Virus record (IMG/VR): IMGVR_UViG_3300036791_001357
Span: 1 to 20,649 of that record
Reading direction: 5' to 3' (one strand)
Length of the DNA stretch: 20,649 nt
Origin: a virus
The notes below the pieces were generated by a model. The model was not told where the DNA came from and made no database searches. It was given only the letters and a program-made list of their open reading frames with translations. The position numbers and the translations under genes were made by a program. Of this stretch, positions 1-20,197 are shown one piece after another; positions within the stretch are counted from its first letter, which is position 1; every line of letters starts with the position of its first letter.

Positions 1-195
1 AGGCCCTTTTTAAAATTGCATAATTCAAAAATCGGTTTAGACGCTCGTACAGCGGCATCGGCAGGGCGAGGCTAGTCAGGTAGCAGCCGGCCTCGAAATG
101 CTCGCCAGCAGCCACGGCAGCCGGCCTGGCCCTTGTGAAACCCCGAATGATCCCCGTATCATCGCCGCCGATCCTGCCAGCAACCTGCTTTGACC

Positions 196-705
196 ATGCG
201 CCGAGGTCCGAAGAACAAGCCGACAACCCTGCTCCACTTGCACGGCACCTGGAATTCGACCCGCCACGGCCAGCGTCCGCCCGATGCAAAGCCTCCTGGC
301 GACCTCGAGGAGCTGCCGGCTGATCTGAGCCCGGCCGAGGCTGAGCGCTGGCATGCGGCCCTGGCAGCCGCTCCTGCCGGCGTTCTGGGCAAGAGCGATG
401 AATCCCTGCTGCGCCTCTGGTGCTTTCATGAAGCGACCTTCCTCGAGGCCCGCCGGATGCAGCAAATGCTCGATGTCGGAAATAAGCTCCCGCTGCTGGT
501 CAAGGGCAAGATGGGAGACATGATCCAGTCGCCCTATCTCAGGATCATGCAACGTTCGAGCCTCATCATGCTGCGCATGATCGAGCAGCTCGGCTTCTCG
601 CCAGTGTCCCGCACCGGCCTCGGCAACACTGAGGAAGCAGCCAGCGGCGATGATGGCCGCTGGATGAGGCTCGAGGAGATGCGGCGCAAGGCCGCCAATG
701 GCTAG
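196..705 (+). CDS. Terminase small subunit, P27 family
   Basis: The product is about 169 aa and should be the DNA-recognition subunit of the packaging motor, which binds phage DNA and recruits the large subunit. The N-terminus (MRRGPKNKPTTLLHLHGTWN) is the typical basic RGPK.KPT..L opening of P27-family small terminases. It is followed by a Pro-rich stretch (about residues 25-40) and a helical C-terminal half. A TTG at 190 is an alternative start in the same frame; I prefer the ATG at 196 because the RGPK motif follows it directly, although no clear Shine-Dalgarno is visible. The stop overlaps the start of the large-subunit gene by 8 bases, so the two are translationally coupled. The family call rests on remembered motif similarity and on the downstream TerL. 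Confidence 0.85.
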   Translation: MRRGPKNKPTTLLHLHGTWNSTRHGQRPPDAKPPGDLEELPADLSPAEAERWHAALAAAPAGVLGKSDESLLRLWCFHEATFLEARRMQQMLDVGNKLPLLVKGKMGDMIQSPYLRIMQRSSLIMLRMIEQLGFSPVSRTGLGNTEEAASGDDGRWMRLEEMRRKAANG

Positions 706-2386
706 AGCTCGCAATGCGATCGATGATGGGATCCGCTATGCCGAGCGGATCGCTGGCTACAAGATCCCTGCACCTAAGCTGGTGCGCCTGGCCTGCCAGC
801 GCTTCCTTGAAGATTATGAAGAGGCAAAGAGCAGCGACAGTTTCTGGCGCTTCGACCCGCAGAAGGCTCTCGGCCCGATCGACCTTGCCGAGGGCCTGCC
901 TAACATCAAGGGTCCGTTCGCAGGCCGGCCGATCAAGCTGCTCGACTGGCAGCGCTGGTGCACCATCAATCTGTTCGGCTTCGTCGAGCGCGAAACAGGT
1001 CTGAGGCGGTTTCGGCAAGCCTCGATCTGGGTTCCTCGAGGCAATGGCAAAAGCACCTGGCTGGCACCGATGGCGCTCTATTCAGCCTTCGCCGAGGGCG
1101 AGGGCGGCGCCGATGCCTTCGCGGCCGCTGTCACCCGCGATCAGGCGAAGATCGTCTGGCAGACAGCCTGGGAAATGGTCCGGCGAGCACCAGGCATGCG
1201 CCAGCATCTCGGCGTCAGCACCTCAGTCAATGCGATCTTTCAGGACCGCAGCGCCTCGAAGTTCGTCCCGATCTCCTCCGACAGCAAGGGCCTCGAGGGT
1301 CTGAATGCACATTTCGTCTGCCTCGATGAGATTGCCAGCCATCGCACTGCCCGCGTTTATGACGTGATGCTGACGGCAACTGGCAAGCGGCTGCAGCCGC
1401 TCCTGGTCTCGATCTCGACAGCAACTGATCAGATCACGGGCATCGGCAAGTCGATCTGGGATTACACGGTCAAGGTCCTGACCGGCGTGCTCAAGGACGA
1501 CCGTTTCTTCGGTGTGATCTATAGCGCTGAGGATGGTGATGATCCTTGGGACGAACGAACGATGAAGAAGGCGAATCCATCCTGGGGAATCACCGTCGTC
1601 CCGGAGCAGATCCGCATCATCGCCCGCCAGGCCAAGATGAATCCGGCGCAGGAGGCGATCTATAAGACTCGCCATCTCAATATGTGGGTGACAGGCGATT
1701 CGCCGCTCTTTTCCATGCCGCATTGGCATGAATGCAAGCGTGCTGATCTCAAGCTCGAGGATTTCACCGAGCACACCTGCATCATCGGCCTCGACATCGC
1801 CAACAAGATCGACCTGACAGCTCTTGTGCTGCTCTTCTGGCAGGAAGGTGATGACGGCCAGACGCATTATACCGTGTTTTGCAAGGCATGGCTGCCCGAG
1901 GCCCGGATCGAGGCTCAGCCGGCCTATGCGACGTGGATATCAGAAGGATGGCTGATGCAGACGCCCGGCGAGACGATCAGCTATGCCGAGGTCGAGGAAA
2001 TGCTGGCCTGGGCCTGCGCAACCTTCGATGTTCAAGCCGTGACCTATGATCCCTGGTCAGCCACGCAGCTGGCGCAGCGCATGCTGGAAAAGAACATCCC
2101 GATGGTCGAATACCCGATGACCGTTGCCACCATGAGCGAGCCGACCAAGGGCCTCGATGCACGGATTCGTGAGCACCGCATCAGCCATGATGGAAATCCG
2201 CTGCTCGGCTGGTGCATGGCAAATGTCACGGGCCATTATGATTTCAAGGACAATGTTTTCCCGCGCAAGGAAGTGAGCGAGAACAAGATCGATGCTGCGA
2301 TCAGCACCATCATGGCGCTCGGGCATCAGATGATCGGCGAGGAAACCACGACGATCTATCGCGACACGGAGCTGCTGGTGTTCTAA
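698..2386 (+). CDS. Terminase large subunit (TerL), Terminase_1 family
   Basis: This 562-aa protein is the ATP-driven DNA-packaging motor and genome-cutting nuclease. An adenine-binding LDWQRW motif lies near residues 82-87. The Walker A motif (PRGNGKST) is at about 113-120, Walker B (FVCLDE) ends at D210-E211, and a coupling motif (LVSISTATD) is at about 236-244. The C-terminal RNase H-like nuclease carries acidic positions D366 in IIGLDIAN, D451 in TYDPW and D532 in NKIDAAIS. All key residues are present, and the length is normal for HK97-type large terminases, so the gene looks intact. It overlaps the small subunit gene upstream. Downstream a portal gene would be usual, but the next gene is a small leftward gene whose 3' end overlaps this one by 4 bases. 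Confidence 0.95.
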   Translation: MARARNAIDDGIRYAERIAGYKIPAPKLVRLACQRFLEDYEEAKSSDSFWRFDPQKALGPIDLAEGLPNIKGPFAGRPIKLLDWQRWCTINLFGFVERETGLRRFRQASIWVPRGNGKSTWLAPMALYSAFAEGEGGADAFAAAVTRDQAKIVWQTAWEMVRRAPGMRQHLGVSTSVNAIFQDRSASKFVPISSDSKGLEGLNAHFVCLDEIASHRTARVYDVMLTATGKRLQPLLVSISTATDQITGIGKSIWDYTVKVLTGVLKDDRFFGVIYSAEDGDDPWDERTMKKANPSWGITVVPEQIRIIARQAKMNPAQEAIYKTRHLNMWVTGDSPLFSMPHWHECKRADLKLEDFTEHTCIIGLDIANKIDLTALVLLFWQEGDDGQTHYTVFCKAWLPEARIEAQPAYATWISEGWLMQTPGETISYAEVEEMLAWACATFDVQAVTYDPWSATQLAQRMLEKNIPMVEYPMTVATMSEPTKGLDARIREHRISHDGNPLLGWCMANVTGHYDFKDNVFPRKEVSENKIDAAISTIMALGHQMIGEETTTIYRDTELLVF

Positions 2387-2700
2387 GCCTTGGCCACGCC
2401 GACCGCGCCAGCCGCGCCGCCCGGTCCTGCCACCTTCACGCCGACCACTGCTGCTCCGGTCGTCCCGGTAGCACCGGTCGTCCCGGTGCTGCCGGTGTCA
2501 CCCATCGCACCGCGCGTTCCCCAATAGGTCTGATCGGCGCTGACCGGTGGATTAGGCGGCATCCGCTCTGCACCCGTCGCACCGGCAGCGGCTGTCGCCC
2601 CGACGCTCGTTACCGGTGAGCTGATCGGCGGCTCAGCCGGCCAGCGATCTGGGCCAGTCACGCCGGTTGCGCCCGTGCTCATGACCTGCGTCTGTGCCAT
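2383..2700 (-). CDS. Small collagen-like repeat protein
   Basis: This leftward gene encodes 105 aa and lies between two rightward blocks. Its start is supported by a strong Shine-Dalgarno: reading the minus strand, GGAGG sits 5 bases before the ATG at 2700. The product contains Gly-X-Thr/Ala triplets (GDTGSTGTTGATGTTG near residues 68-83; GATGVTG near 11-17; GATAAAGATG in the middle) separated by Pro-rich linkers (RWPAEPPISS, RMPPNPPVSAD). There is no signal peptide or membrane segment. Collagen-like triplets in phages form trimeric stalks of fibres, so a structural or decoration role is plausible, but the family is not recognised. It is convergent with TerL, overlapping by 4 bases. The strong Shine-Dalgarno and low-complexity composition argue against a shadow reading frame. 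Confidence 0.65.
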   Translation of the reverse strand: MAQTQVMSTGATGVTGPDRWPAEPPISSPVTSVGATAAAGATGAERMPPNPPVSADQTYWGTRGAMGDTGSTGTTGATGTTGAAVVGVKVAGPGGAAGAVGVAKA

Positions 2701-2774
2701 ATCAACCTCCGTTTATTTGATTGCGCTATCAGTCTATCATGCGAGGCCAGGCAGACCGCCAGGGGGATTTTGCG

Positions 2775-3203
2775 ATGCCCGGCAGCTACACGATGAACCT
2801 CTATCGCGGCGACACCTACCACTGGAAATTCGTCGTCTGGCAAGACACGGCGATGACGATCCCAGCCGATCTGACCGGCGTTACCGCCAAGTCGCAGATC
2901 CGAGACAAGCCCTCAGGAGCTTTCATCGTCGATCTCGTTGTGAACGTGGTGCTGCCGAACACGATCACTGCCGATCTTGCGCAGGTCGATAGTCAGCGGC
3001 TGTTGCCGCCGGCCTGCGCATGGGATCTCCAGCTCACCTATCCCAACGGCGATGTCATCACGATCCTCGCCGGCGCAGTCAATGTGACGCCCGACATCAC
3101 GGATTCGACGCCTGGTGGTTTGACAAAGCGTGCGGCCGATGCCAAGGGAAAATATGAAGCTTGGCGAGAGAAGCAGGCGGCGGCGGCGGCAGCGGCCGAA
3201 TGA
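2775..3203 (+). CDS. Baseplate/receptor-binding-like phage protein
   Basis: The product is about 142 aa. The start at 2775 is chosen because AGGGGG lies 8 bases upstream; the reading frame is open back to 2721 but has no ribosome site there. The sequence (YRGDTYHWKFVVWQDTAM..DLTGVTAKSQIRDKP) looks like the beta-sandwich module of phage baseplate-upper or fibre-associated proteins, in which a 'GDT...F.L...TG..A..qIR' pattern recurs. The C-terminus is Ala-rich and helical (about 120-142, ending in an alanine run). It overlaps the next gene by ATGA and sits in a coupled block ending in the tail fibre, so a role in the host-recognition apparatus is likely. The precise family is not certain. Confidence 0.65.
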   Translation: MPGSYTMNLYRGDTYHWKFVVWQDTAMTIPADLTGVTAKSQIRDKPSGAFIVDLVVNVVLPNTITADLAQVDSQRLLPPACAWDLQLTYPNGDVITILAGAVNVTPDITDSTPGGLTKRAADAKGKYEAWREKQAAAAAAAE

Positions 3204-3496
3204 CCAAGACCATCGACGTCGTACTGCCCCGCCCGTGTGAAAGCCTTGGAAATCGAGCAAGGTGGAGGACCACAACCGATATGATGAACGGCCAGCAACC
3301 CCTGACTTATGACGGCAACACACCGGTTACGATCACGCTTCCTCTCAACAATTGGGCTCTGGTCCGGACGCTGCTCGGCGAGGCGCCGTGGAAGACTGCT
3401 AATCCGATCATAGGCGAACTCGATCGGCAGATAGGCGTCGCGCTCGAACACGTCGAACCCATCCAACAACAGCCCGGCGGCGAGCTGCGGCAATGA
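3200..3496 (+). CDS. Hypothetical phage protein
   Basis: This small gene (98 aa from the ATG at 3200) overlaps the upstream stop by ATGA and the downstream tail-fibre start by the same arrangement, so it is part of a translationally coupled block. An internal ATG pair at 3281/3284 with GGTGGAGG about 13 bases upstream is an alternative start and would give about 71 aa, beginning [18 protein letters not shown]. The C-terminal half contains [18 protein letters not shown] and a helical segment. I recognise no family. The context suggests a minor structural or assembly factor for the fibre. Confidence 0.6.
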
Positions 3497-5379
3497 CGAC
3501 GATCACCACGGGTGGCGATAACAATCTGACGATCGACGTTCAGCAACCGTCACTGCAACCTCTCGGCATCGACATCACGCAGCCCGTGGGTCCGCCCGGC
3601 CCGGCTGGCCCGGCAGGACCGCCGGGTCCGAGCGGCGCTGATGGTGCTCCGGGCGCGACTGGGGCGCCCGGTCCGCAAGGTCCTCAAGGCATCGCCGGCG
3701 CGCAAGGCGTGCCAGGAGCTGCAGGACCGAGTGGACCGCAGGGCGCCACTGGCGCTGCAGGTCCGAGCGGCCCATCGGGCGCGCAGGGCACTCAAGGTGA
3801 TCCTGGGGTCGCCGGGCCGGCAGGGCCGATAGGTCCTTCGGGTGCCGATGGTGTTGCAGGTCCGACCGGTCCAGCGGGTGCGCAGGGTATTCAAGGCACG
3901 CAGGGCGTCCAAGGCCCACCTGGGCCGCAAGGATTGACAGGTCCGACCGGCGCTTCTGGCGGGGTCGCCAGCTTCAACGGCAGGACCGGCGCCATCGTCA
4001 GCCAAGCGAGTGACATCACCTCGGCCGGCGGCGCCCTGCTGGCGAGCCCGGCTTTCACTGGCCTGCCTACCGCCCCGACTGTGGGCGCGGCGGACAACAG
4101 CCAATCGCTGGCGACCACCGCCTTTGTCCAGAACAAGCTCGTCGGAACCGTCACGACCTTCAACGGCCGCAGCGGGGCCGTGACCTTGAACACGGGCGAC
4201 GTGACCGGAGCCGGCGGGGCGCCGCAGAACAACGCCGCGCTGACGGGCATCCCAACCGCGCCGACCGCAGCACCGGCAACGGCCACGACACAGCTTGCTA
4301 CGACTGCCTTTGTCGGCACGTCCTTTGCTCCCCTCGCCTCGCCCGCCCTTACTGGAACCCCCACCGTGCCGACAGCGCCGGCCGGGACCGCTACGACGCA
4401 AGCGGCATCGGCCGCTTTCGTGCAAGCGGCCGTAGCGCCGGCCTTCAACGATACCGGCCGAAACCTGCTGCACAATGCATTGCTAGCTGTACAACAAAGA
4501 GCGACAGGCCCGTGGACCGTCTCGGGTTCCTATACCGCCGATCGCTGGGCAGTCGGCGCCGTCGGGGGCGATACTTTCAGCGCCAGCCTGGTGGCGGCAG
4601 CCGACGCCGATCGCGCCGCAATCGGCGACGAGGCGACAACAACACTGTTGCAAGTCGTCTTTACCGGCACCTCCGGCACCACGTCCTATAGTCAGCTATA
4701 CCAGGGGATCGAAAGAATCCGGCGGCTCGGCGGAAAGACCGTCGCCTTTTCCTTCTGGGCCAGAAGGACCGCAGGAACGGCGCCCAAGCTCGGCATTTCA
4801 ATCGATCAATATTTCGGCAGCGGAGGCACCCCCTCGGCAGAGCTGCAAGGAACGGGAGTAGCAATCACTCTCAGCACGACATGGACACGTTACAGCGGAA
4901 CAATCGCCATCCCCAGCACGTCCGGCAAAACGCTGGGCACAAACAGCGACGATGCTAACTATCTTTCAATCTGGTTCTCATCCGGCGCCAACAACAATGC
5001 CTTTGCCGGCGGCATCGGGGTGCAATCCGGCACCGTGCAGTTTTGGGGCGCTCAGCTCGAAATTGGATCCGTCGCTACGCCATTGGAGAAGCCGCCTGAC
5101 CCGCAGGTAGAACTCGCCAAGTGCCAGAGGTTCTATCAGACCGGGCATTTCAACCTGATCGCATATGCCGCAGCCGGAGCGGGATCGGGCATGGGATTCC
5201 CCTTCCCGACTCCGTTCCGTGTCCCCCCTCAGGTCATCGCCGCCACTACGACAAATACCAATTGCAGCGCTCTCGCGATCAATGCCGCCTATACCGATTC
5301 TTTCCTTGGCGTGTCGACAGCCGTGGCGCTAGGCATGTTCCAACTCGCCGGCACCTTCACCGCCTCGGCCGACATATGA
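3493..5379 (+). CDS. Collagen-like tail fibre protein
   Basis: This 628-aa protein is the probable receptor-binding fibre. After a short N-terminal region (1-32) there is an almost uninterrupted Gly-X-Y tract from about residue 33 to 155 ([13 protein letters not shown] onward, about 40 triplets), expected to form a trimeric collagen-like stalk. Then come two copies of an FNGR(T/S)GA(I/V) element (about 161 and 223) alternating with three fibre repeats of the type ASPA(F/L)TG.PT.PT...TTAFV (about 184-212, 247-275, 282-311). The C-terminal 300 residues start [28 protein letters not shown], a jelly-roll/carbohydrate-binding style seen at the tips of phage fibres. It is coupled to the upstream gene by ATGA. 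The 3' end overlaps a convergent leftward gene by 51 bases. Function is inferred from architecture. Confidence 0.88.
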
Positions 5380-5571
5380 GGCGTAAAGCTCGACCAGCTC
5401 CTTCAAGCTCGCGATTCCGTGATATCTGCTGTGAACCTTGTTGATGAGCGCCTGTGCTGCAGCCAGGGTCAGCGGCTTGTCGCAACACGGGCAGCCAGTG
5501 ACGATCGTCGTCCCATCGCTCAGACTGTAGTGCTCGCCGCCATCGATGGCCTTGATCCTAAAGGCGCTCAT
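5329..5571 (-). CDS. Hypothetical protein with CPCC motif
   Basis: The product is 80 aa, the last gene of the leftward recombination operon. The start is well supported: GGAGG lies 7 bases upstream on the minus strand, and the ATG overlaps the upstream stop (ATGA). A Cys cluster ([10 protein letters not shown], about residues 25-34) suggests a metal-binding knuckle, although only one Cys pair or triplet is present, so a complete zinc ribbon would need a partner chain. The rest is helical. The 3' end runs 51 bases into the end of the convergent tail-fibre gene. The family is unknown. Confidence 0.6.
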
Positions 5572-6029
5572 CCTGAAACCTCCATAGTCGGCGGATCGCC
5601 GATCCAGATGCCGCGAAGGGCTGCATCCTCAGGAAGCTCGATCATCAGGGCCAGATGTGCCCTGGCAGATTCCGGCGGCGCAGTGTGTCTCAACTTATCA
5701 AGCGATGGCACGGTGATCGGCGGCAGCCGATCAATTGTCGGCAGCGGCTCCTGATAGAAGATGCGACCGATGATGTAGCTTATCATCGACTCGCTGATGC
5801 CATGATGGATGGATCCATAAGCATCTTTCCATCCAGTGAACTGTGGGAATTGCTTACGGACGTGAGGGACTATCTGTGACGGTGACATCCCCTCCCAATA
5901 GAGTTCAAAGATGAAGCCGGCAGCAGGGCGAAACTCACCGCCATAGCGGTTGAAGTCGAGTTTTCGTGATCCCAGGCTCGGGGTCGGATTCTCGCCGCCT
6001 TGCGGATAACGGCGCGGCACCTGCATCAT
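5568..6029 (-). CDS. Hypothetical protein, possible GcrA-like DNA-binding
   Basis: This 153-aa product is coupled on both sides in the leftward operon (its start overlaps the ATPase stop and its stop overlaps the next start). Residues about 41-95 read FELYWEGMSPSQIV ... ISESMISYIIGRIFYQEPLP. This resembles the helix-turn-helix of GcrA-type proteins (LW.EG.SASQIA ... SRNAVIGK.HRL.LP), with a longer insertion between the two halves. GcrA is an alphaproteobacterial cell-cycle transcription factor, and phages carry small homologues. The match is by eye and partial, and the insertion is unusual, so this could be an unrelated winged or helix-turn-helix protein. The basic N-terminus (RRYPQGG, SRKLDFNR) fits DNA binding. 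Confidence 0.6.
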   Translation of the reverse strand: MMQVPRRYPQGGENPTPSLGSRKLDFNRYGGEFRPAAGFIFELYWEGMSPSQIVPHVRKQFPQFTGWKDAYGSIHHGISESMISYIIGRIFYQEPLPTIDRLPPITVPSLDKLRHTAPPESARAHLALMIELPEDAALRGIWIGDPPTMEVSG

Positions 6030-7021
6030 ACGAGACTGCCTTGCTGCTTCTTCGATGCTGCGAGCTGACGCAGATTATCCCAGAGGCCAGGCGCGCTTTC
6101 CTTCAATGCCTTCAATCCTGCGGGATGATTGCGCCACCAGGCTTCCGGTTGCTGACTCCCCTCGAGGCCAGCCCGCAGCTCCTGGTGCAGCTTGATCATG
6201 TCTTCATGATAAGCTGGCTCAGGCTGGTCCGATGTCTTCTCCGTCGGCTGGTCGGGCGGCGGCGCGGATCTGGCATGTTCCGGCGCCGCCGCCTTAATGC
6301 TCTTGCCGGCGCACCAGAGTGCGAGCTTTCGCCCTGTCTCAATCGTCACCATCTCCCCGCTCTTGAAGACATCAGCGAGCGCAGGATGGCCGAGCTTCGT
6401 CACCCGCAATGTGTGATCGGCCAGAATCTCGGCATGCACCGTCATCTCGAAGATGAAATCACCATCCTGCTTCGGCGTGGCGAACTCATCTTTTACGATG
6501 ATGGTCTTGCCCTTCTCGTCTTTGCCCTGGCGGGATTTCCGCTTTGCCCTGAGGCAGCAGATCACAGGGAACGGCGTGCGGAGAAGCTTGAGCATCATCT
6601 TTGTGTGAAGCCGCTTCGGCTCTTTCCAGCAATGCAGACCTGCTTTGCCGCTTTCGATTTCTCTATCAGCGGCCATGTCTGACACCGAGCCCTCGCCGCC
6701 TTCCCACTCGTGCGACATGCTGTCGATGATGCCGATGGCAGGCTTTGCCTTCACCATCGCATCGATGGCCTCGATATAGTGCGCTGGCGAGAACGGCTCA
6801 TCCAGGTCGAGCACGTCATATCCGCCGGGGATGACATCCTCATAGTCTGAGCCGCGCCCGGTCTCTGTATCAATCATCGCAATCTTGCCCGCCGGGCCGA
6901 CGAGCCCGCGCGCGAGCAGGAGCGCGGAATAGGTCTTGCCGCCGCCGCTCAGGCCATAGAGCCCGATGAGTGGCCGACGCCGGCCACGAGCTGCAGGGCG
7001 GAAGATCATCGTCAAGGTCAT
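6026..7021 (-). CDS. RecA-fold ATPase, Sak4-like / AAA_24 family
   Basis: The product is about 331 aa. Walker A (GLSGGGKT) is at about 23-30, and a hydrophobic strand ending in IDTETGRG (49-56) follows. Walker B (AIGIIDS) is at about 95-101, and a later strand FPVICCLRAK (about 151-160) carries a sensor-like position. This is the AAA_24 / Sak4 layout: a minimal RecA core used by phages for single-strand annealing and recombination. The C-terminal 100 residues are a charged, Pro-rich linker (EHARSAPPPDQPTEKTSDQPEP) and a helix, possibly for partner binding. Start choice is ambiguous: GAGGAG directly abuts the ATG at 7021, so TTG at 7015 or ATG at 7009 could be used; all keep the whole domain. 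The exonuclease gene lies immediately upstream with a 4-base gap, typical of a recombination operon. Confidence 0.8.
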   Translation of the reverse strand: MTLTMIFRPAARGRRRPLIGLYGLSGGGKTYSALLLARGLVGPAGKIAMIDTETGRGSDYEDVIPGGYDVLDLDEPFSPAHYIEAIDAMVKAKPAIGIIDSMSHEWEGGEGSVSDMAADREIESGKAGLHCWKEPKRLHTKMMLKLLRTPFPVICCLRAKRKSRQGKDEKGKTIIVKDEFATPKQDGDFIFEMTVHAEILADHTLRVTKLGHPALADVFKSGEMVTIETGRKLALWCAGKSIKAAAPEHARSAPPPDQPTEKTSDQPEPAYHEDMIKLHQELRAGLEGSQQPEAWWRNHPAGLKALKESAPGLWDNLRQLAASKKQQGSLV

Positions 7022-7025
7022 CTCC

Positions 7026-8018
7026 TCATGGTTGCCACAAGGCGATCGAGAGCTTGAAGGGATCGACCTTGCCTTGACGATCCAGACTTGCTTGCTGGTG
7101 ACGCTCTTCAACCTCGCGCTGGCGCCACACCGGCGGATCCGCATAATAGGTTCGCTTCGAATAGCCCGGCCATGCATTGCGGCGCTGGCATTTCACCCAC
7201 AGGTCCATTGCCATTTGCAGGTCTTGCTGAGCGAGCTCCAACACGCTCGGCGCCAGGCCCACGACGCTGAGCGCATATGGCGGATTCTGCTCCTGGACGA
7301 TGAAGCGAAATTCCCAATCTTCCCTGAGCAGCTGGCGGGTGCCGCGAAGATAAAAGGCAGCCTGGATATCGCCGTTGATGTCGTACAGCGTCCGGCTCGA
7401 CCATGCGATCGGTGAGGCATTGCCGGCAGTCGTCTTGTAGTCGAAGAGCATTCGCCGCCCGCCCTGACGCTGCATCCAATCGGGACGCATCCGGCACCAT
7501 ATTGCGCCCTCCTGCCAAAGCAGCGTCCGCTCGCCCTCGCCCTCGCGAAAGGCATTCTTGGCCTCGACGGTCTGCTGCAGCTGCAGCCTGGCACTCTTCA
7601 CCATGCTCGAGACCTGCTGCCATTCATGCTCGAGGAGCGCGACCTTGCCCTCGCGGCCAACAGCAGCTCGCTCATCTCTTGCGGCCTCGGATTTCCAATT
7701 CGGCGCATCGATGATTTCAAAGATTGATGCACCTTCGCAAAGCAGCGAATGAGCAGCTCGGCCGATATCGAACTTCGGATAATGCTCGGGCTTGAAATCG
7801 GGATTGAGGCGGGGATGTGCCAGCCAGGCATGGCGCGGCGACTGAGCCCGCAGGATCGCGGCAATATGTGCAGAGAGCGATGCATGCGGCGCCGGGTCAG
7901 CGTGATAGTCTGCCGCCGGGATATTGTAGATCCCGGCCTTTGTCAGTTGTTTCCGAGAAGCATCGCCAGCAGCTTTTCCCGCAGGGTCAACCGCTGCCAA
8001 TGCCGTGCTGCGCGCCAT
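7026..8018 (-). CDS. PD-(D/E)XK exonuclease, RecE/lambda-exo-like
   Basis: The product is 330 aa and probably resects double-stranded DNA to give single strands for the neighbouring Sak4-like ATPase. Visible motifs are a helix FDIGRAAHSLL (about 83-93), the catalytic pair RPDW (Asp at about 180) and DYKTT (D-x-K, about 193-197), and a downstream QAAFYLRG helix (about 219-226). This is the order expected for the DUF3799/RecE C-terminal nuclease fold. An N-terminal YNIPAADYHADP..SLSAHIAAIL region (31-56) is also typical ('Y......YH....lSsS'). Catalytic residues are intact. The C-terminus is charged. Identification is from motif order, not a database search. Confidence 0.85.
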   Translation of the reverse strand: MARSTALAAVDPAGKAAGDASRKQLTKAGIYNIPAADYHADPAPHASLSAHIAAILRAQSPRHAWLAHPRLNPDFKPEHYPKFDIGRAAHSLLCEGASIFEIIDAPNWKSEAARDERAAVGREGKVALLEHEWQQVSSMVKSARLQLQQTVEAKNAFREGEGERTLLWQEGAIWCRMRPDWMQRQGGRRMLFDYKTTAGNASPIAWSSRTLYDINGDIQAAFYLRGTRQLLREDWEFRFIVQEQNPPYALSVVGLAPSVLELAQQDLQMAMDLWVKCQRRNAWPGYSKRTYYADPPVWRQREVEERHQQASLDRQGKVDPFKLSIALWQP

Positions 8019-8031
8019 CGCCGAAAGAACC

Positions 8032-8298
8032 TCATTCTAGAATGCCGGATGACTCCTCGCGCGCCTTCTTGAGCGCAAGGCGGGTGAAGAATTGCAGGAG
8101 ACGGCGGCGATCTTGCTCCTCGACCACGCCACAAAGGGCAACGCCGGTCGCTGTTGCCAAGATCACAAGCGTCTCGCTCAGACTGAAATTGTCCGGCGGT
8201 CCGATCAGTTGATTTGCATAGTGGACGGCATAGGCATCGAGTTGTCGTGCGCGTGCTTCCGTGATCGGGCTGCGCGGTTCATCTTTTTCCGCGTTCAT
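8032..8298 (-). CDS. Hypothetical protein, first gene of leftward operon
   Basis: This small (88 aa) protein opens the leftward recombination operon. It has an acidic-to-basic N-terminus, a helix RQLDAYAVHYANQLIG, a hydrophobic stretch LVILATATGVALCGVV (about 45-60) and a basic C-terminal helix (DRRRLLQFFTRLALKKAREE). The hydrophobic stretch is too Ala/Gly-rich and short to call a membrane segment with confidence. A weak GAGG lies just before the ATG. The gene ends 13 bases before the exonuclease start. No family is recognised. A single-strand DNA-binding or annealing role would suit the context but nothing in the sequence proves it. Confidence 0.6.
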   Translation of the reverse strand: MNAEKDEPRSPITEARARQLDAYAVHYANQLIGPPDNFSLSETLVILATATGVALCGVVEEQDRRRLLQFFTRLALKKAREESSGILE

Positions 8299-8390
8299 TG
8301 CCTCAGCTTACGCTGCTCGAGGTCATCAGCCAAGGTTGTGCAGGCAGTTTCAAGCCATTCTATTCTGAAAATGCCGAATTTAGAACAGTT

Positions 8391-8425
8391 GGACCCCTAT
8401 GGACCCTATTGACCTCTATGGACCC
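8391..8425. repeat. Phased GGACCC operator-like repeats
   Basis: Four related units follow each other: GGACCCCTAT (8391), GGACCCTATT (8401), GACCTCTAT (8411) and GGACCCTCAA (8420). Spacings are 10, 10 and 9 bases, close to one helical turn, so a protein would meet all copies on one face. The first two units plus flanks (8390-8410) recur exactly at 19584-19604 upstream of the integrase. This is seen directly; an operator function is inferred. Confidence 0.7.
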
Positions 8426-8535
8426 TCAATCAAGGGCTGATTCTTTTCTAATAACGACCATTGACTGCTCTGCTGCTTCGGGCAGACCATAATTGCCCCA
8501 AACCGAACGTCGAGGGCGAAGCTCTTCACGCTTAT

Positions 8536-8549
8536 CGATCGCGCGATCG
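8536..8549. promoter_or_regulatory. 14-bp perfect palindrome, possible operator
   Basis: CGATCGCGCGATCG is a perfect inverted repeat located 52 bases before the start at 8602 and ahead of its ribosome site. Dimeric repressors bind sites of this shape, but a GC-rich genome can also give such a palindrome by chance. Confidence 0.35.
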
Positions 8550-8601
8550 GCCCTCTTTGTTCGCACTGTTGCTGCTCAGCCGATGAAAGGAGATTCCGAC
8601 C

Positions 8602-9219
8602 ATGGCACGAATGATGCGAGCCGATACCAGGATCGAGCAGGAAGATGAGCCCCGCCGGCGCGGCAGGCCGAGCAAGCATCCCATGGCAACAGATGCAAAG
8701 GTCACCGATGAGACGGTGCGCGAGTTCGGGCGGCGAATTCGCGCCAGAAAGCTTGATGCTGACCACGATCGCGAACAGGCGAAGAAGAGCAACGGTGCCT
8801 ATCGCGCTGAGCTGAAGGCTGCAAAAGCTGCTGGCGTTGATCCCGATGCATTGCGCTGGTGGCTACAGGCTGCTGCGATGGAGCCCGAGGACCTCGAGCG
8901 CACGATCACCTGGCAGAATCGCGTGGCGCGCGTGATGGAGCTGCCGGTCGGCACGCAGCTCAGCTGGAACGTCGAGACCGGTGAGACCGTCATCCCCACC
9001 GGGAAGAAGACGAAGCAAGACAGGAAGGCAAACGGCAAGGGAAACGCAGATCCTCGAGCAGCATATGTTGCAGGCTATGACGCAGGCGTGGCCGGTAAGA
9101 GTCCGAAGCGCACAGGCCAGCAGTTCACGGGCGAAGCCGCCACGCAATTTCAAGCCGGCTGGCAACAGGGCCAGAAAGATGCAGCCAAACAGCTAGGGCC
9201 CGAAGGCAACATGCAATAA
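8602..9219 (+). CDS. AT-hook and RMF/CrpP-fold-like DNA-associated protein
   Basis: The product is 205 aa. The start at 8602 is fixed by AAAGGAG about 10 bases upstream. Residues 18-27 (RRRGRPSKHP) are a textbook AT-hook (GRP core with basic flanks). The middle (about 60-120, KKSNGAYRAELKAAKAAGVDPDALRWWL) recalls the helical DUF2312/GapR-type pattern. Residues about 153-193 (AAYVAGYDAGVAGKSP...FQAGWQQGQKDA) match the ribosome modulation factor/CrpP signature, a GY.AG..GK...GW..G spacing seen in many phage proteins. It is the first gene of the rightward early operon, so it may act on host ribosomes or chromatin soon after infection. The domain calls are motif-based, and the combined function is unknown. 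Confidence 0.7.
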   Translation: MARMMRADTRIEQEDEPRRRGRPSKHPMATDAKVTDETVREFGRRIRARKLDADHDREQAKKSNGAYRAELKAAKAAGVDPDALRWWLQAAAMEPEDLERTITWQNRVARVMELPVGTQLSWNVETGETVIPTGKKTKQDRKANGKGNADPRAAYVAGYDAGVAGKSPKRTGQQFTGEAATQFQAGWQQGQKDAAKQLGPEGNMQ

Positions 9220-9231
9220 GGCCCGGCAGCG

Positions 9232-10278
9232 ATGGACACGCTGCCCGCCCGCGTCGATGGCGCACCGCCAGCGCTCGACCTGCCGTCGATCCGCAATGCC
9301 CTCGCGCTCGCGACCGAGCCTGAGGAAATCCTCAAGGTCGATCGAACGCTCGAAGCCTTTGAAATCTATCTCCGTCGAAGCGGGCTCTGGAAACAAAGCT
9401 GGGGCGAGGCGCTCGACATCCGCGAGGAACGTCTTCGTGCTCGGTGGCTGCTCGGTCGCACGCTGGACAAGATCGAGCGCGGCAAGGGAAATAGATTTTC
9501 CCAGACCGGGAAGCTCTATAGCAACCTGTTGTCTCAATGGAATTTGAACAAGAACCGCGCGCAGGAAGCACAGCGCATCGGCACTTTGCCCGAGGATGAG
9601 CTGCAGGCAGCCTTCGACGATGCCCGCGAGCGTGACATCCTGCTCGACTTCGAGAGCCTGATCGATCTTGCCCGGCCTTACTGGTATCAGGCGAGCCGCG
9701 AGCGTAAGCACCAGGTCATCTATGAAACCGCGACAGAGGATGCGGAGGCTTTCGGACCGTTCCCACTGATCTATGCCGATCCGCCGTGGAAATTCGAAAT
9801 CTACAGTCCTAAAGGTCTGGAACGCACGCCGGACCAGCACTACCCCACGCTCAGCGACGCGGAGATTGCCGACTTCAAGGTCGCGGGCAGGCCAGTGTCG
9901 GAGATCGCCAACGATGATGCGGCCCTGCTGCTCTGGTGCACGTCGTCCAATCTCGCGCGGGCACTGGAAATCATGCGGGCCTGGGATTTCACCTTCAAGA
10001 CGAGTGCTGTCTGGGTAAAGGACCGCAGCGGAACCGGCTTGGTCTTCCGCAATCAGCATGAGCTGCTGCTCTACGGGACACGGGGCGAAATGCCGGGGCC
10101 GCTCTGGCAACCGCGCTCAGTCTTCACCTATCCGCGCGGCCGCCATAGCGCCAAGCCGCCGGAGATCCGAAAGGCGATAGAACGGATGTACCGAAACTTC
10201 GATGCGTCGGCACGGCTGGAGCTTTTCGCCCGCGGCAATATTCCGGGATGGACTACCTATGGATTCGAAGCGCGATAA
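9232..10278 (+). CDS. MT-A70 family DNA adenine N6-methyltransferase
   Basis: The product is 348 aa and transfers a methyl group from S-adenosylmethionine to adenine N6 in DNA. The catalytic motif DPPW is at 183-186, preceded by the strand FPLIYA. Family features follow in order: HYPTLS (203-208), LLLWCTSSNLARALEIMRAWDFTFKTSAVWVK (232-263), a KPPEIRKAIERMY helix (308-320), and the SAM-binding end LELFARGNIPGWTTYGFE (329-346). The first 170 residues are a helical domain (EEILKVDRTLEAFEIYLRRSG...RARWLLGRTLDKIERGKG) found in phage MT-A70/ParB-associated proteins, probably for DNA contact. The target sequence cannot be read from the protein. It overlaps the next gene, a nuclease, by 20 bases. Confidence 0.9.
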   Translation: MDTLPARVDGAPPALDLPSIRNALALATEPEEILKVDRTLEAFEIYLRRSGLWKQSWGEALDIREERLRARWLLGRTLDKIERGKGNRFSQTGKLYSNLLSQWNLNKNRAQEAQRIGTLPEDELQAAFDDARERDILLDFESLIDLARPYWYQASRERKHQVIYETATEDAEAFGPFPLIYADPPWKFEIYSPKGLERTPDQHYPTLSDAEIADFKVAGRPVSEIANDDAALLLWCTSSNLARALEIMRAWDFTFKTSAVWVKDRSGTGLVFRNQHELLLYGTRGEMPGPLWQPRSVFTYPRGRHSAKPPEIRKAIERMYRNFDASARLELFARGNIPGWTTYGFEAR

Positions 10279-10834
10279 GAACATCATCAAGGTGCCGCTG
10301 GAGCTGCGCTCACGCTGCTATGCGCTCGCCCTCATGCGGCTCGACCAATATGCGACTGGGCGGGCGAACAACTCGCTCGCCGTTTCAAGCCATGGCGCCG
10401 AGCATAGTCTCGATATCCAGAAGCAGGGCTTATTCGCTGAGCTCGGTATGTGCTTGTGGTCGGGTCTCGATGCCGTTGCTCATCTCGACCGTGCCCGGCG
10501 GGAAACTGCCGACAATGGCACTGATATCGTTGTCGGCCAGGGCTATCGCATCGATGTAAAATCGACAGGCTGGTACGGTCAGTGGCTCCTATGGCCCTAC
10601 CGGAAACGGCAGCTGTATGCCTCCAAGGTATTCGATGCACTGGTGCTCGTGAAGGTCGATTGGGACGCCAGCCTATGTCTGATCGGCGGGTGGATAACCA
10701 AGAGCGAGTTTGCTAAGCAGCACAAAGCGGCTGTCGAGGGAAACCCATGGCATTTCACCATCGGGACCATGATCTTGCATGAAAAATTTCTGACGCCGAT
10801 GGAATGCTTTCCCTATCGGATGATCGTCGCATGA
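10259..10834 (+). CDS. Putative PD-(D/E)XK nuclease
   Basis: This 191-aa product carries a compact nuclease-like motif: E61 in GLFAELGM, D89 in NGTDIVVG, and D99-x-K101 in YRIDVKSTG, followed by a strand FDALVLVKVDW (125-135). That order (helix Glu, strand Asp, D-x-K) is characteristic of PD-(D/E)XK enzymes such as restriction endonucleases and Holliday or repair nucleases. I chose the ATG at 10259, which overlaps the methyltransferase by 20 bases; an upstream in-frame opening at 10202 lies inside the methyltransferase. The stop overlaps the RuvC-like gene by ATGA. Being nested between an adenine methyltransferase and a resolvase, it could be a restriction partner or a DNA-processing nuclease. 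Its exact family is unknown. Confidence 0.7.
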   Translation: MDSKRDKNIIKVPLELRSRCYALALMRLDQYATGRANNSLAVSSHGAEHSLDIQKQGLFAELGMCLWSGLDAVAHLDRARRETADNGTDIVVGQGYRIDVKSTGWYGQWLLWPYRKRQLYASKVFDALVLVKVDWDASLCLIGGWITKSEFAKQHKAAVEGNPWHFTIGTMILHEKFLTPMECFPYRMIVA

Positions 10835-11397
10835 CCGCGCCCGTCATCCTGGCGCTCGATCCTGGTCACAAGACCGGCTATGCCGTCGATGATCCAGATG
10901 CCGCGAACGGCTGCCGGACTGGAATCCTGGAGATGCCGCGCGAGTATCCCAAGACCGGCCTCGAGCTTTGCTTTCTTGAGCGCTGGCTGCTGGAGATGAT
11001 CGAGCAATTCGAGGTCACGGTGCTCGCCTGGGAGGCACCGCTCGTCTTCAGCAAACCTGAGTCAGCAACCACGACATCAGAAACGATGGAATTCGCCTTC
11101 TACTTCGGCGCTGTGTGCGATCTCGTCGGCACGCGAAACGGCATTGCGACTTGGAAGGTGCACGCGGTAACGGCCCGGCATCATTTCACTGGCAGCGGCC
11201 GCGCCAAGAAGGATCATGTCTATCAGCGTGCGAAGCTCAACGGCTATCAGGTCAAGAGCTTCGATGCCTCCGATGCGGTCGCAATCTGGGATTTCATCGC
11301 GCACAAATATGGGCACCGGAATCTACCGGCCGGTCCCTTGTTCGGCAAATCCACCCGATCCATGCGCCGCTCGGCACCGGAACTGGACGACGCATAG
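10831..11397 (+). CDS. RuvC-like Holliday junction resolvase
   Basis: The product is 188 aa from the ATG at 10831, which overlaps the upstream stop. It has the RNase H-fold signature of RuvC: ILALDPGHKTGYAV (6-19; D10), VLAWEAPLV (64-72; E68), and the C-terminal acidic pair in SFDASDAVAIWDF (143-155; D145 and D148). These acidic residues bind two metal ions and cut branched DNA. The helix ARHHFTGSGRAKKDHVYQRA (115-134) is also typical of the family. Phages use such enzymes to resolve junctions before packaging, which fits the nearby recombination and replication genes. Confidence 0.87.
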   Translation: MTAPVILALDPGHKTGYAVDDPDAANGCRTGILEMPREYPKTGLELCFLERWLLEMIEQFEVTVLAWEAPLVFSKPESATTTSETMEFAFYFGAVCDLVGTRNGIATWKVHAVTARHHFTGSGRAKKDHVYQRAKLNGYQVKSFDASDAVAIWDFIAHKYGHRNLPAGPLFGKSTRSMRRSAPELDDA

Positions 11398-11400
11398 CCC

Positions 11401-12258
11401 ATGGCCCGGATCAGAACCATCAAGCCCGAATTTTGGGACAGCGAGCAGATCAGCGAATGCTCGACGAATGCCCGTCTGCTGTTCATCGGAATCTGGAATT
11501 TCTGCGATGACCGTGGCGTCATTGAAGAGCGTCCCAAACAGATCAAAGGGCAGATTTTCCGCTTCGATGACGTGTCGGTCCGAGACCTCCAAACCTACCT
11601 CGGTGAGCTTCTACATCACGACCTGTTGCGCCGCATGACGGACGGCGATGGGAAGAGCTATCTATATGTTCCGACCTGGAAAAAGCACCAGAAAATCGAC
11701 CGGCCGCAGAAAAAATTCAACAATCCAGTGCCGCCAGAATTCGATGAAAGCTCGACGAATGACCAACCCGAATTGCCCTACGATTCGTCGAACACTCATC
11801 GAGCCCTCGCTCCGCGCGCGCCTAGGAAGGGAAGGGAAGGGAAGGGAGTCGAAAGGAATCTATCTTCATCCTCGCTTCGCTCGGATGAAGATTCCGCCCC
11901 AGCCCTAAACGGGGCTGGGCCGGCGCCCCCGCCGCGCATCGCTACGCTGTCGGAAAATTGGACGCCGAGTGAAGCTCAGACTGCTTTCGCGGTGACCGCA
12001 GGCTTCACCGAACCGGAGGTGCGCCGACAGGCGGCGTTCTATCGCGCCTATTGGACGACCGGAGGCGGCGCCGGCGAACGGCGATCATCGAAAGGCTGGA
12101 ACCGGACATGGCAGACCTGGATGCGCAAGGAAGCTGACCGGCATCAGACGCGCGCCGCGCCGACGAATGGTGCAGGGCGTGGGCGCGGCCGACCAGTGCT
12201 CTCAGAAGCCGACATCGATGAGGTCCTCGGCCCCAAGGGAGGCGGCAATGACCGTTGA
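11401..12258 (+). CDS. Phage replication initiator-like protein
   Basis: The product is 285 aa. The N-terminus MARIRTIKPEFWDSEQISEC followed by ARLLFIGIWNFCDDRGV (24-40) and YLGELLHHDLLRR (66-78) is the winged-helix domain common to phage replication/helix-turn-helix proteins. The C-terminus (FYRAYWTTGGGAGERRSSKGWNRTWQTWM, 213-241) matches the DnaT-type ssDNA-binding domain (F..YW......W...W..W). They are joined by a disordered linker (about 118-185) whose DNA contains a G-quadruplex-like tract and a hairpin, a likely origin. Spacing from the RuvC-like gene is 3 bases; the 3' end overlaps the next gene by 11 bases. The pair of domains and the neighbouring loader candidate parallel lambda O and P. 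Confidence 0.8.
   Translation: MARIRTIKPEFWDSEQISECSTNARLLFIGIWNFCDDRGVIEERPKQIKGQIFRFDDVSVRDLQTYLGELLHHDLLRRMTDGDGKSYLYVPTWKKHQKIDRPQKKFNNPVPPEFDESSTNDQPELPYDSSNTHRALAPRAPRKGREGKGVERNLSSSSLRSDEDSAPALNGAGPAPPPRIATLSENWTPSEAQTAFAVTAGFTEPEVRRQAAFYRAYWTTGGGAGERRSSKGWNRTWQTWMRKEADRHQTRAAPTNGAGRGRGRPVLSEADIDEVLGPKGGGNDR
11825..11892 (+). other. Candidate replication origin inside the initiator gene
   Basis: Positions 11829-11846 hold four GGG runs separated by AA, a perfect short-loop G-quadruplex motif, preceded by GGAA. Sixteen bases further on lies a perfect 10-bp inverted repeat, ATCTTCATCC (11862-11871) and GGATGAAGAT (11883-11892), with an 11-base loop. Both fall in the low-complexity linker of the initiator, where protein constraint is weak. 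Lambda-type phages keep their origin inside the initiator gene. The structures are seen; origin function is inferred. Confidence 0.5.
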
Positions 12259-13003
12259 TGAACTCGTGCGCAAGCTGGGGCGAGTGTTCCCGCAAGGCTT
12301 CGGCGGCAAAGAGGGTCTCAACGAATGGCAGGAGATCCTGCGAGGATCGCTGAAGCAGTTTGAGGGGCCGACATTGGATGCAGCCTATAGCCAGCTGATG
12401 GGTGCATGGGACCGCCCATTTCCGCCGATGCCCGGTGCCTGGCAGGTTGCCTGCATCAATGCCCGAAAGGAGATCACCGGTCGTGGTGGCACCGGCCTCA
12501 ACTGGAAGGAGATTAACGACCAAATGATGCGGCTGAAGCCGATCCTGATCGATGACTGGCTGCAGGGCAACGCCGATCTGGTCGCACGCTTCCTCGCCCG
12601 CTTCAATGACGACGATCCAGCGCCGACTCGCTTTGCTGCAGGGGAGCCGTTGCGTTTGGTGCCGCTCAATGATCGCCAGCTCGCCCGAGCTCGGCTAGTC
12701 GATCTGCTGCGCGATCGTGCCCATCTGGCAGCGATGTGCCAGGCCATGGGCAAGACGGCGCAGGTCGATATCTTCGAATTCGATCGTGAAGACCCGGAGA
12801 CGAAGCAGATTCTCCGCTCCGATCTCGACAGGATCGAGGGCCAGGTTCGCTCACAGCGGCGCTACGGCGGCTTCGGTAATCTCGGCAAGACAGTGCAGCG
12901 GCCGCTTGCCAAGCCGCTGCGTGATGGTCCGGAACCAGCGCGCGAGATGACCGATGAAGATTGGTCAGCACACGAAAACGAAGCAAAGGAAATGCAGTCA
13001 TGA
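12248..13003 (+). CDS. Putative helicase loader / replication protein
   Basis: The product is 251 aa from the ATG at 12248, with GGAGG 5 bases upstream. It overlaps the initiator stop by 11 bases. The N-terminal part (ELVRKLGRVFPQGFGGKEGLNEWQEILRG.....DAAYSQLMGAWDRPFPPMPGAW) resembles the small helical domain of phage helicase loaders (a 'yP.....E....W...l....a...l......FPP.p..' pattern). The remainder is charged and helical, with RYGGFGNLGK near residues 198-207. Position directly after the initiator mirrors the lambda O-P order. No ATPase motif is present, so it would be a non-AAA loader. This role is an inference from position and weak motif. Confidence 0.65.
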   Translation: MTVDELVRKLGRVFPQGFGGKEGLNEWQEILRGSLKQFEGPTLDAAYSQLMGAWDRPFPPMPGAWQVACINARKEITGRGGTGLNWKEINDQMMRLKPILIDDWLQGNADLVARFLARFNDDDPAPTRFAAGEPLRLVPLNDRQLARARLVDLLRDRAHLAAMCQAMGKTAQVDIFEFDREDPETKQILRSDLDRIEGQVRSQRRYGGFGNLGKTVQRPLAKPLRDGPEPAREMTDEDWSAHENEAKEMQS

Positions 13004-17748: not shown

Positions 17749-17961
17749 TTACTCCTTCAGCTGCATGAGTTCGGTGATGAGGGCGTCAAGCTCGGTGAGC
17801 TTCACCCAATTGCGCTTGTTGTAGCCGTAGATCCGCAGCCTCTCCGTGCGCCGCCATTGCCGCAGGACCTTGGCAGGCAAGCGCGAGTAGCGCAGGGCGT
17901 CAGGGTAATAGGGGATGAAAATCGGACGCAGATCACTCCGCGTCGAAACATGACGGCGCAC
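17749..17961 (-). CDS. Small helix-turn-helix-like protein
   Basis: The product is 70 aa. The only in-frame start is GTG 17961, with GGAG about 10 bases upstream. The sequence YSRLPAKVLRQWRRTERLRIYGYNKRNWVKLTELDALITEL has the shape of a small winged helix-turn-helix (helix, recognition helix, beta wing, then a 'v.LTELDALI' helix), as in excisionase and AlpA-type regulators. It is the first gene of the leftward small-gene operon, and the integrase lies immediately to its right. An excisionase or operon-regulator role is plausible but unproven. Confidence 0.6.
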   Translation of the reverse strand: MRRHVSTRSDLRPIFIPYYPDALRYSRLPAKVLRQWRRTERLRIYGYNKRNWVKLTELDALITELMQLKE

Positions 17962-18140: not shown

Positions 18141-19445
18141 TCAGTTCCCCATGAGCAGCTGCTGCGCTGTCGGAGCAGAGGGCGGGATGATCATCCCGGC
18201 CCATTCGGCGCACAGCTCGGCCCGCCGGTTCAGGTAGGTGCCCCGGTTGTAGATGCCCTTGACCCCTGGCAGCTTGTGGGCGAGCTGGGCCTCGACGACC
18301 AGATCATCAAAGGGCCGGGCATCGGGACGATCGCTCATGACGGTCGAGAAGCTGCTGCGGAAGCCGTGCGGGCAGTGGCGGTCGGTGAAGCCGGCTGCCT
18401 GGATCAGGTCCGCCATCGAGGTCTCGGAGATCGGCTTCTCGGCCTTGGCCCTGCTCCAATGCGGGAATACGTAGTCGGGACCCTCGTCCGTCCGCAGCTC
18501 GCGCATGGTGCGCAGGATGTCGAGAGCTGGCCCGGAGAGCGGCGACACCCAATCCTCGCGCATCTTCATGCGCTTGCCAGGGACGCGCCAGACGGGCCGG
18601 TTGCCCTCGAGGTCCTCCACCTCATCCCAAGTCATCTCGCGCACCAGGCGCGGCCTGGCAGCTGTCAGGGCGAGGAACCTGAGGGCGAGCTTGAAAAGGC
18701 CCTTCGTCTCGACCTGCTCCGTGGCCCGCAGCAGGGCCGTGATCTCGGGCAGCGTCGTGAGGGCCAGCTGCGGCGTCGTCTCGACCCGCTTGAACACCTT
18801 CGCCTTTGCCAGCCCTGCAGCCGGGTTGTGGTCGCAGTACCTCAGAGCACGGGCATAGTCGTAGACCGCCTCGATGGTCTTGCAGACCCGGCGCCCGGTC
18901 TGGGCGATGCCCTTGTCCTCGAGCCGGCGGACAAGGCCCATGACCTCGGCGGTATCGATGGCGCTGAGCGAGCGCTGGCCGAGCACAGGATAGATTTTCT
19001 GATGCAGCCAGTTTTCGAGGTTTTGCGTGTAGCCGGGCGCCCAGCCGGGCCGGTTGACCTGATACCATTCGTCGGCGACATCCTGAAAGGTCCGCTCGCC
19101 AGCCACGATCCTGGCCGTCGCGATCTCGACGGAAGTTGCACCGGCCGGATGCAGAATCGGGTCGTAACCCATGCGCAGGATCCGCCGGGCATCATCGCGC
19201 CGGTCGCGGGCCTCTTTCAGCCCGACCTCGGGATAGGCGCCGAAGCTCATCTGCTTCTCGCGGCCTTCCCAATAGTATTTCCAGCGCCAGAGCTTGCTGC
19301 CGTTCGGCTGGACGGTCAGGCGCAGGCCCTGGCCAGCCGTCACCTTGAACGGCTTGGCGGCGGGCCTCAGGCCACGGATGGCGGCGTCGGTCAGGAGCTT
19401 CTTCGGCTCTGTCCTGGTGGACAGCATGTCGGTGTTCAGTGTCAT
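18141..19445 (-). CDS. int: Tyrosine-type site-specific integrase, P4/DUF4102 type
   Basis: The product is about 434 aa from ATG 19445, preceded by GGAAG; the frame is open to 19565, but that extension lacks a ribosome site and looks non-coding. The N-terminus KLLTDAAIRGLRPAAKPFKV followed by G.GLRLTVQPNGSKLWRWKY is the DUF4102 arm-binding domain. A core-binding domain follows (TFQDVADEWYQ...NLENWL). Catalytic residues are visible: Arg in RPRLVREMTWDEVE, Lys in the VPGKRMKM segment, HGFR (His-x-x-Arg), QLAHK, and the nucleophile region GIYNRGTYLNRRAE. All elements look intact. It catalyses recombination between phage and bacterial attachment sites. No tRNA gene is visible next to it. Confidence 0.93.
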   Translation of the reverse strand: MTLNTDMLSTRTEPKKLLTDAAIRGLRPAAKPFKVTAGQGLRLTVQPNGSKLWRWKYYWEGREKQMSFGAYPEVGLKEARDRRDDARRILRMGYDPILHPAGATSVEIATARIVAGERTFQDVADEWYQVNRPGWAPGYTQNLENWLHQKIYPVLGQRSLSAIDTAEVMGLVRRLEDKGIAQTGRRVCKTIEAVYDYARALRYCDHNPAAGLAKAKVFKRVETTPQLALTTLPEITALLRATEQVETKGLFKLALRFLALTAARPRLVREMTWDEVEDLEGNRPVWRVPGKRMKMREDWVSPLSGPALDILRTMRELRTDEGPDYVFPHWSRAKAEKPISETSMADLIQAAGFTDRHCPHGFRSSFSTVMSDRPDARPFDDLVVEAQLAHKLPGVKGIYNRGTYLNRRAELCAEWAGMIIPPSAPTAQQLLMGN

Positions 19446-19583
19446 GATGCTTCCAATGCTTAGGGTTTCAATGCCCCGAACGCTGCCCCGCTTTGGGGTC
19501 TGCTGCCGGGTGCCAGGCTTTCCTTGGCATTGCCAGCATTTTGGCGGAAAATGGCTGCGTTTCAAGCGCTACGTGGAAGGGAA

Positions 19584-19604
19584 TGGACCCCTATGGACCC
19601 TATT
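19584..19604. repeat. Second copy of the 21-bp GGACCC repeat
   Basis: The stretch TGGACCCCTATGGACCCTAT plus one further T is identical to 8390-8410. It contains two GGACCC units 10 bases apart. It lies about 139 bases upstream of the integrase start, in the same orientation relative to a leftward gene as the first copy. An exact 21-base match over 11 kb is unlikely by chance. Confidence 0.75.
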
Positions 19605-19752
19605 TGCACTCACTCTGGCATCCAGGGCAGACTTAGGATGACGAGTATAAGAGCTTGAAACCATGTCGTTATCTGAATCTCCCCTGCAAAAATGCCCCGA
19701 TATTCACCCCGAACATGCTTTTGCTGCCTTTCATCCACAGGTCAGAACCGGA

Positions 19753-19861: not shown

Positions 19862-20197
19862 ATGTACCAGATGCCGCATACGAGGCGCGTACACAAGGCT
19901 CAAGCTGCCAGGCCAGCGGTCAAGCCAGCACCCAAGAAGAAGCAGCCGAAGCCGCCGGTCGTCAAGGCAGCCGACCAGGCCGCCAAGAAGGCCGATCCCC
20001 TGATCGGCCCAGCCGAGTTCCGCCACCTGCTCCACGTCTCGCGGACGACCTTCAAGCGCATGCGTGCACAGGGCAGAGTCATTGAGCCGGCGGTGATCCT
20101 GGGGCAGCGCATGCCGCGCTGGCGCCTGTCTGATGTCGAGGCAGCCATCCGGCAGGCTCGAGCCGCCTTCGCGGAAGCCAGGGAGACCGGCCAATGA
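19862..20197 (+). CDS. Basic-tailed helix-turn-helix protein
   Basis: The product is 111 aa from ATG 19862, with GAGGG about 7 bases upstream. Residues 1-47 are a Lys/Ala/Pro-rich basic tail (KPAPKKKQPKPPVVKAADQAAKK), likely disordered and DNA-contacting. The rest (GPAEFRHLLHVSRTTFKRMRAQGRVIEPAVILGQRMPRWRLSDVEAAI) is an AlpA/MerR-like helix-turn-helix with a wing, as in small phage regulators and excisionases. Its stop overlaps the ParB-domain gene by ATGA, so the two are co-translated. It could regulate the GGACCC repeats or direct excision, but neither is shown. Confidence 0.7.
   Translation: MYQMPHTRRVHKAQAARPAVKPAPKKKQPKPPVVKAADQAAKKADPLIGPAEFRHLLHVSRTTFKRMRAQGRVIEPAVILGQRMPRWRLSDVEAAIRQARAAFAEARETGQ

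Follow-up and report, generated by a model that had tools for sequence, protein, structure and literature searches.

The repeated arrays and the neighbouring genes

The DNA analysed here, referred to as the window, is the whole stretch of 20,649 nucleotides of a viral record. The sequence TGGACCCCTATGGACCCTATT is found in it in two exact copies on the same strand, at 8390-8410 and 19584-19604; the identity is complete, as the first-pass annotation had stated for a 21-base copy of two units in the same orientation. The first copy belongs to a distal array (8390-8425, plus strand) located in the divergent intergenic region 8299-8601, with boxes GGACCC at 8391, GGACCC at 8401, TGACCT at 8410 and GGACCC at 8420. 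These four units, described earlier as spaced by about 10 bases, are indeed separated by 10, 9 and 10 bp, but only three of them are exact and the third in order is degenerate. The second array (19584-19604, plus strand) consists of the boxes GGACCC at 19585 and 19595, also 10 bp apart. Both sets are direct repeats at about one helical turn, and both are proposed here to be excisionase operators.

The hexamer GGACCC itself occurs in the window at chance frequency (11 seen, 10.5 expected), so that meaning attaches to the array alone. Among exact direct repeats with copies more than 200 bp apart the longest has 21 bp, compared with 13-19 bp in windows simulated by a third-order Markov model (100 simulations, longest repeat 19). 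A matrix of six units passed over the window revealed no third array, the best other tandem pair (minus strand) scoring 8 compared with 32-35 for the real arrays. No similarity between the surroundings of 8390 and 19584 was found past the boxes.

The distal array precedes two divergent operons, a leftward one at a distance of 92 bp and a rightward one at 177 bp. The leftward recombination operon (5568-8298, minus strand) contains a small ORF (8032-8298), an exonuclease VIII-like PDDEXK protein (DUF3799, 7026-8018), a P-loop ATPase (AAA_24, 6026-7177) and a second small ORF (5568-6029). The ATPase and exonuclease frames (6026-8018) overlap by about 150 bp as called, and the true start of the ATPase is probably downstream of the called position 7177. 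The divergent rightward operon (8602-13003, plus strand) comprises an unknown gene at 8602, an MT-A70 methylase, a RuvC-like protein and a replication initiation protein, and it could be the regulated unit instead of the leftward operon. The MT-A70 type adenine methylase gene (9232-10278) adjoins the RuvC-like and replication initiation genes. A search of 8250-8650 gave no consensus promoter.

The integrase and its attachment site

A tyrosine integrase of the P4/KplE1 type is encoded at 18141-19445 on the minus strand, as judged from Pfam matches, alignment and PHROG 1. The matches to PF13356 (2e-21), PF22022 (5e-23) and PF00589 (3e-11) correspond to an N-terminal Arm-DNA-bind_3 (DUF4102) domain and a catalytic domain. 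N-terminal alignment to relatives makes 19445 or 19427 a more likely start than 19565, which places the second array about 140-160 bp upstream of the integrase. The location given by the first-pass annotation, upstream of this gene, is thus retained with the start at 19445 or 19427, the start at 19565 being less likely.

Most of the related phage integrases examined have short tandem repeats beside the attachment site, and for this reason 80 relatives were collected from bacterial genomes. Tandem repeats resembling T[A/G]CCCCCA, at 11-13 bp, are present just upstream of the integrase in 69 of the 80; they are the integrase arm class. The arm motif TGKTGGTATC of IntS from ICEMlSymR7A, the sites of which are needed for integration, reads on the other strand like this class (PMC11963761).

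When the whole window was scanned with an arm matrix derived from the relatives, the top two tandem pairs were 19472/19484 and 19693/19705, and these flank the GGACCC array. The integrase-proximal sites (19472-19490, plus strand), the best pair of the window, are a tandem TGCCCCG with 12-bp spacing; the distal sites (19693-19711, plus strand), the second-best pair, are TGCCCCG and CACCCCG, again with 12-bp spacing. With arm pairs on both sides of the array, the attP of the window appears to be intact, and the GGACCC boxes within it appear to be sites of another class than the arm sites.

The candidate attP core TGGCATCCAGGGCAG (19616-19630, plus strand) was placed by geometry, because the host attB was not found: TGGCATCCAGGGCAG has no match in 385 genomes of one class. 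Of the 684 TGG positions in the window, the one at 19616 fits the P4-type att layout best, with a score of 17; the runners-up score 11 (with the same arms) and 9. Counted from this core, the proximal arms lie at -144/-132, the boxes at -31/-21 and the far arms at +77/+89. A core at TTTTGGCGGA (19539), which resembles the ends of tRNA-Ser, was rejected since the arm distances would be -69/-57, far below the commonest values in the relatives (about -120 to -156). A nested element whose left and right att arms would be the two arrays was also rejected: the 8390 place has no shared core, the arm matrix scan gave no integrase arm pair near it, and both arms are found around 19616.

The view favoured at first, suggested by the tandem repeats upstream of int in related phages, was that the GGACCC boxes are themselves arm-type sites, bound by the integrase at both places. 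The boxes are direct repeats that adjoin an integrase with an arm-binding domain, and at one related locus (L088) a GGACCC pair lies between the integrase gene and a tmRNA. However, the relatives have an arm class of the form T[A/G]CCCCCA, spaced by 11-12 bp, and copies of it, canonical and separate from the boxes, are present in the window on both sides. With a preliminary arm matrix the score of the GGACCC array is about zero or less, and the full matrix does not place it among its top pairs. Moreover, in KplE1 it is TorI that binds at the box positions, the arm sites there being distinct (PMC2951348). We consider this explanation very improbable.

Conserved positions of the boxes

The excisionase sites of KplE1, an E. 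coli prophage, have been mapped experimentally with TorI (PMC2951348). In MG1655 the attL TorI sites are CGATC at -94, CGAAC at -84, CGAAC at -74, CGGAC at -31 and CGAAC at -11, and a further CGGAT is present at -21. The attP of P4 has GGAC at -31, GGAT at -21 and GGAA at -11; its annotated 12-bp tandem arm pairs are at about -136/-124 and +73/+85.

For 61 relatives of the integrase, all tRNA-inserted and deduplicated, box positions were counted with the CCA end of the tRNA as origin. The peaks of GGA[C/T] are at -21 (28 relatives), -31 (21), -84 (19), -85 (12) and -11 (10). At least two boxes at -31, -21, -11, -74, -84 and -94 are present in 26 of the 61, compared with 0-4 when the positions are shifted, and the block -74/-84/-94 is common among the relatives, though not universal. 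Similarly, TTGGAC between the arm sites and the tRNA core is found in 21 of 52 relatives (1.5 expected). The positions mapped in one E. coli prophage therefore recur at the same coordinates in other P4-type elements, which belong to Alpha-, Beta- and Gammaproteobacteria, Acidobacteria and others. Sites of RDFs are usually called by footprinting, the motif being weak, so that a positional rule would allow their prediction from sequence.

In the window only two of the six canonical positions are filled. The -11 box is absent, as in most relatives, and no GGA box occurs in the second attP block at -74/-84/-94. The pair at 19584 occupies the canonical excisionase positions of a P4-type attP, between the arm sites, which replaces the earlier description of this copy as a simple operator of the integrase promoter.

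A scan of related genomes for the repeat, proposed with the first-pass annotation, recovered GGA[C/T] boxes at att positions, but distal arrays of at least three boxes numbered 5 in the relatives for 2.3 expected, no clear excess over chance, so that the 8390 copy stands without comparative support. Other shared exact phased repeats were absent or unconvincing in 82 related phage loci, and close relatives of the window integrase were not found in viral contigs. The GGACCC array as a widespread viral element was rejected: TGGACCCNNNTGGACCC occurs in 109 viral stretches, most of which look like chance, and only one of the loci fetched adjoins a related integrase.

Two observations concern the relatives. 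At L088 (2571-2680), where a related integrase lies beside a tmRNA, GTGGACCCTGGTGGACCC directly precedes the 3' end of the tmRNA, which gives another case of GGACCC boxes at such a site. Upstream of the integrase in many relatives (L121-L200) a hairpin with a GC-rich stem, AAAAAAGCCCC...GGGGCTTTT, is located between the two blocks of excisionase boxes; it may serve as a terminator of the target tRNA or of the integrase unit.

The candidate excisionase

The gene at 19862-20197 (plus strand), just past the far arm, encodes a candidate excisionase (RDF), a helix-turn-helix protein resembling AlpA, Vis and TorI. It matches phrog_66, 'excisionase and transcriptional regulator', with E = 8e-8, a family matched also by P4 Vis (4e-15) and TorI (3e-8), and it can be aligned to P4 Vis with 35% identity over 43 amino acid residues. 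Its Pfam matches are below the cut-offs, and close homologues were found neither in phages nor in the 385 genomes. The first-pass annotation had named two helix-turn-helix proteins as possible binders; this one is retained by its match to phrog_66, but the other, at 17749-17961, matches no DNA-binding family in PHROG or Pfam. The single-sequence structure models of both small proteins are too poor to use (pLDDT 62 and 56).

The attP boxes have the canonical positions and motif, and the 19862-20197 protein falls in the PHROG family of TorI and Vis; the boxes are thus most likely excisionase operators, and the protein that binds them is most probably this candidate. We propose, with a probability of roughly 0.78, that the GGACCC boxes, the attP pair together with the distal four, are operators of an RDF, most likely the 19862-20197 product, the distal set forming a second operator. 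Sequence and comparison show what the proposal is built on: both arrays, the layout of attP, the conservation of the box positions and the candidate's protein family. The phased direct repeats, from which a regulon had been deduced in the first-pass annotation, are the right clue to a shared binder. The regulon idea holds in part: a common DNA-binding protein is still the best reading, but this protein is most probably the excisionase and not an unknown one.

Another phage regulator, a repressor or activator coordinating the integrase and recombination genes, might instead bind the boxes. Repressors typically have exact operators in common, and since the 20.6-kb record is incomplete and no repressor gene was identified in it, such a gene may lie outside. 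However, the boxes fall exactly at the -31/-21 excisionase positions, and the repeats are direct, not inverted, at one helical turn; a regulator of this type is hardly to be expected.

Comparison with known systems

RDFs are described as binding short direct repeats spaced by one helical turn, at attP as well as at a distal promoter, and those of P2-like phages and P4 as acting also away from att (PMC7498355). The operators of Apl of phage 186 measure 6 bp and repeat directly every 10-11 bp; attP has five of them and a distal pair of promoters has seven. Apl binds them cooperatively, bends the DNA and regulates both promoters (PMC7498355). By analogy, Apl is the closest precedent for the distal array. 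Apl (186) and Cox (P2), RDFs that serve as excisionase and transcriptional regulator, resemble the window in having the same operators at attP and in a distal promoter region, as direct repeats about one turn apart. The differences are that Apl has five and seven boxes, compared with two and four GGACCC boxes here; that the integrase of the window is of P4 type, not P2 type; and that its distal site adjoins an exonuclease/recombination operon and no recognised lysis-lysogeny switch.

In the TorI/IntS system of KplE1 (CPS-53) the boxes CGGAC, CGGAT and CGAAC are located between the arm sites and the tRNA core and overlap the integrase promoter (PMC2951348), whereas the window clearly shows only the -31/-21 pair, plus the distal copy. 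The P4 Int/Vis system shares with the window the 12-bp tandem arms on both sides and an RDF protein in the same PHROG; it differs in that its only arrays of at least three such boxes are two in attP. RdfS of ICEMlSymR7A, a wHTH RDF, also binds attP and a distal promoter (PMC11963761), but its sites have no clear consensus, while the repeats of the window are sharp.

Proposed role of the two arrays

In the proposed mechanism, excisionase monomers would occupy the two attP boxes, which stand at the canonical -31/-21 on the integrase side of attP, with the integrase arm sites beyond them and the core before them. The monomers would bind head to tail, one per helical turn; they would bend the arm, promote excision and probably also repress the integrase promoter. 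The array at 8390-8425 would be the second operator, located between the divergent operons and upstream of the exonuclease/recombination genes. Bound there, the excisionase would adjust early genes of recombination and replication at prophage excision, much as Apl and Cox act on distal promoters. This analogy suggests that 8390 may be a regulatory site, and that the excisionase would regulate one or both of the operons bordering 8299-8601.

RDFs have loose DNA specificity, so the exact identity over 21 bp exceeds the need and may reflect a recent duplication. The attP boxes could accordingly be excisionase operators and the 8390 array a non-functional or recently copied duplicate, or one bound without regulatory consequence. 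The exact identity fits a recent copy, distal box arrays are not clearly enriched in the relatives, and the region between the operons offers no consensus promoter. On the other hand, the array continues past the 21-bp copy with two more phased units (one degenerate), it sits in a divergent intergenic region, and the sharing ends at the boxes, with dissimilar flanks. A duplicate, or an array without regulatory consequence, is considered unlikely, and a second operator at 8390 is preferred.

Excisionase sites at att and at a distal place are an arrangement already known in phages such as 186 and P4; the arrays are very probably of this known kind, and only the target, a recombination operon, is possibly unusual. 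A repeat that was unexplained has become a specific prediction of binder, place and effect. More tentatively, the excisionase may directly control the exonuclease VIII/ATPase operon, forming one switch for excision and for homologous recombination or replication of the excised genome, and the GGA[C/T] grammar of -31/-21/-11 and -74/-84/-94 may predict excisionase sites in elements with P4-type integrases from many phyla.

Features of the whole record

The region 1-5379 contains the small and large terminase subunits; portal, capsid and head protease were not recognised in it before the collagen-like tail-fibre gene. Possibly the record is incomplete or rearranged, or comes from a defective or satellite phage. 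The right end of the record (20194-20649) cuts a ParB-like gene, which has no in-frame continuation at base 1; a ParB-like gene of this kind often precedes terS.
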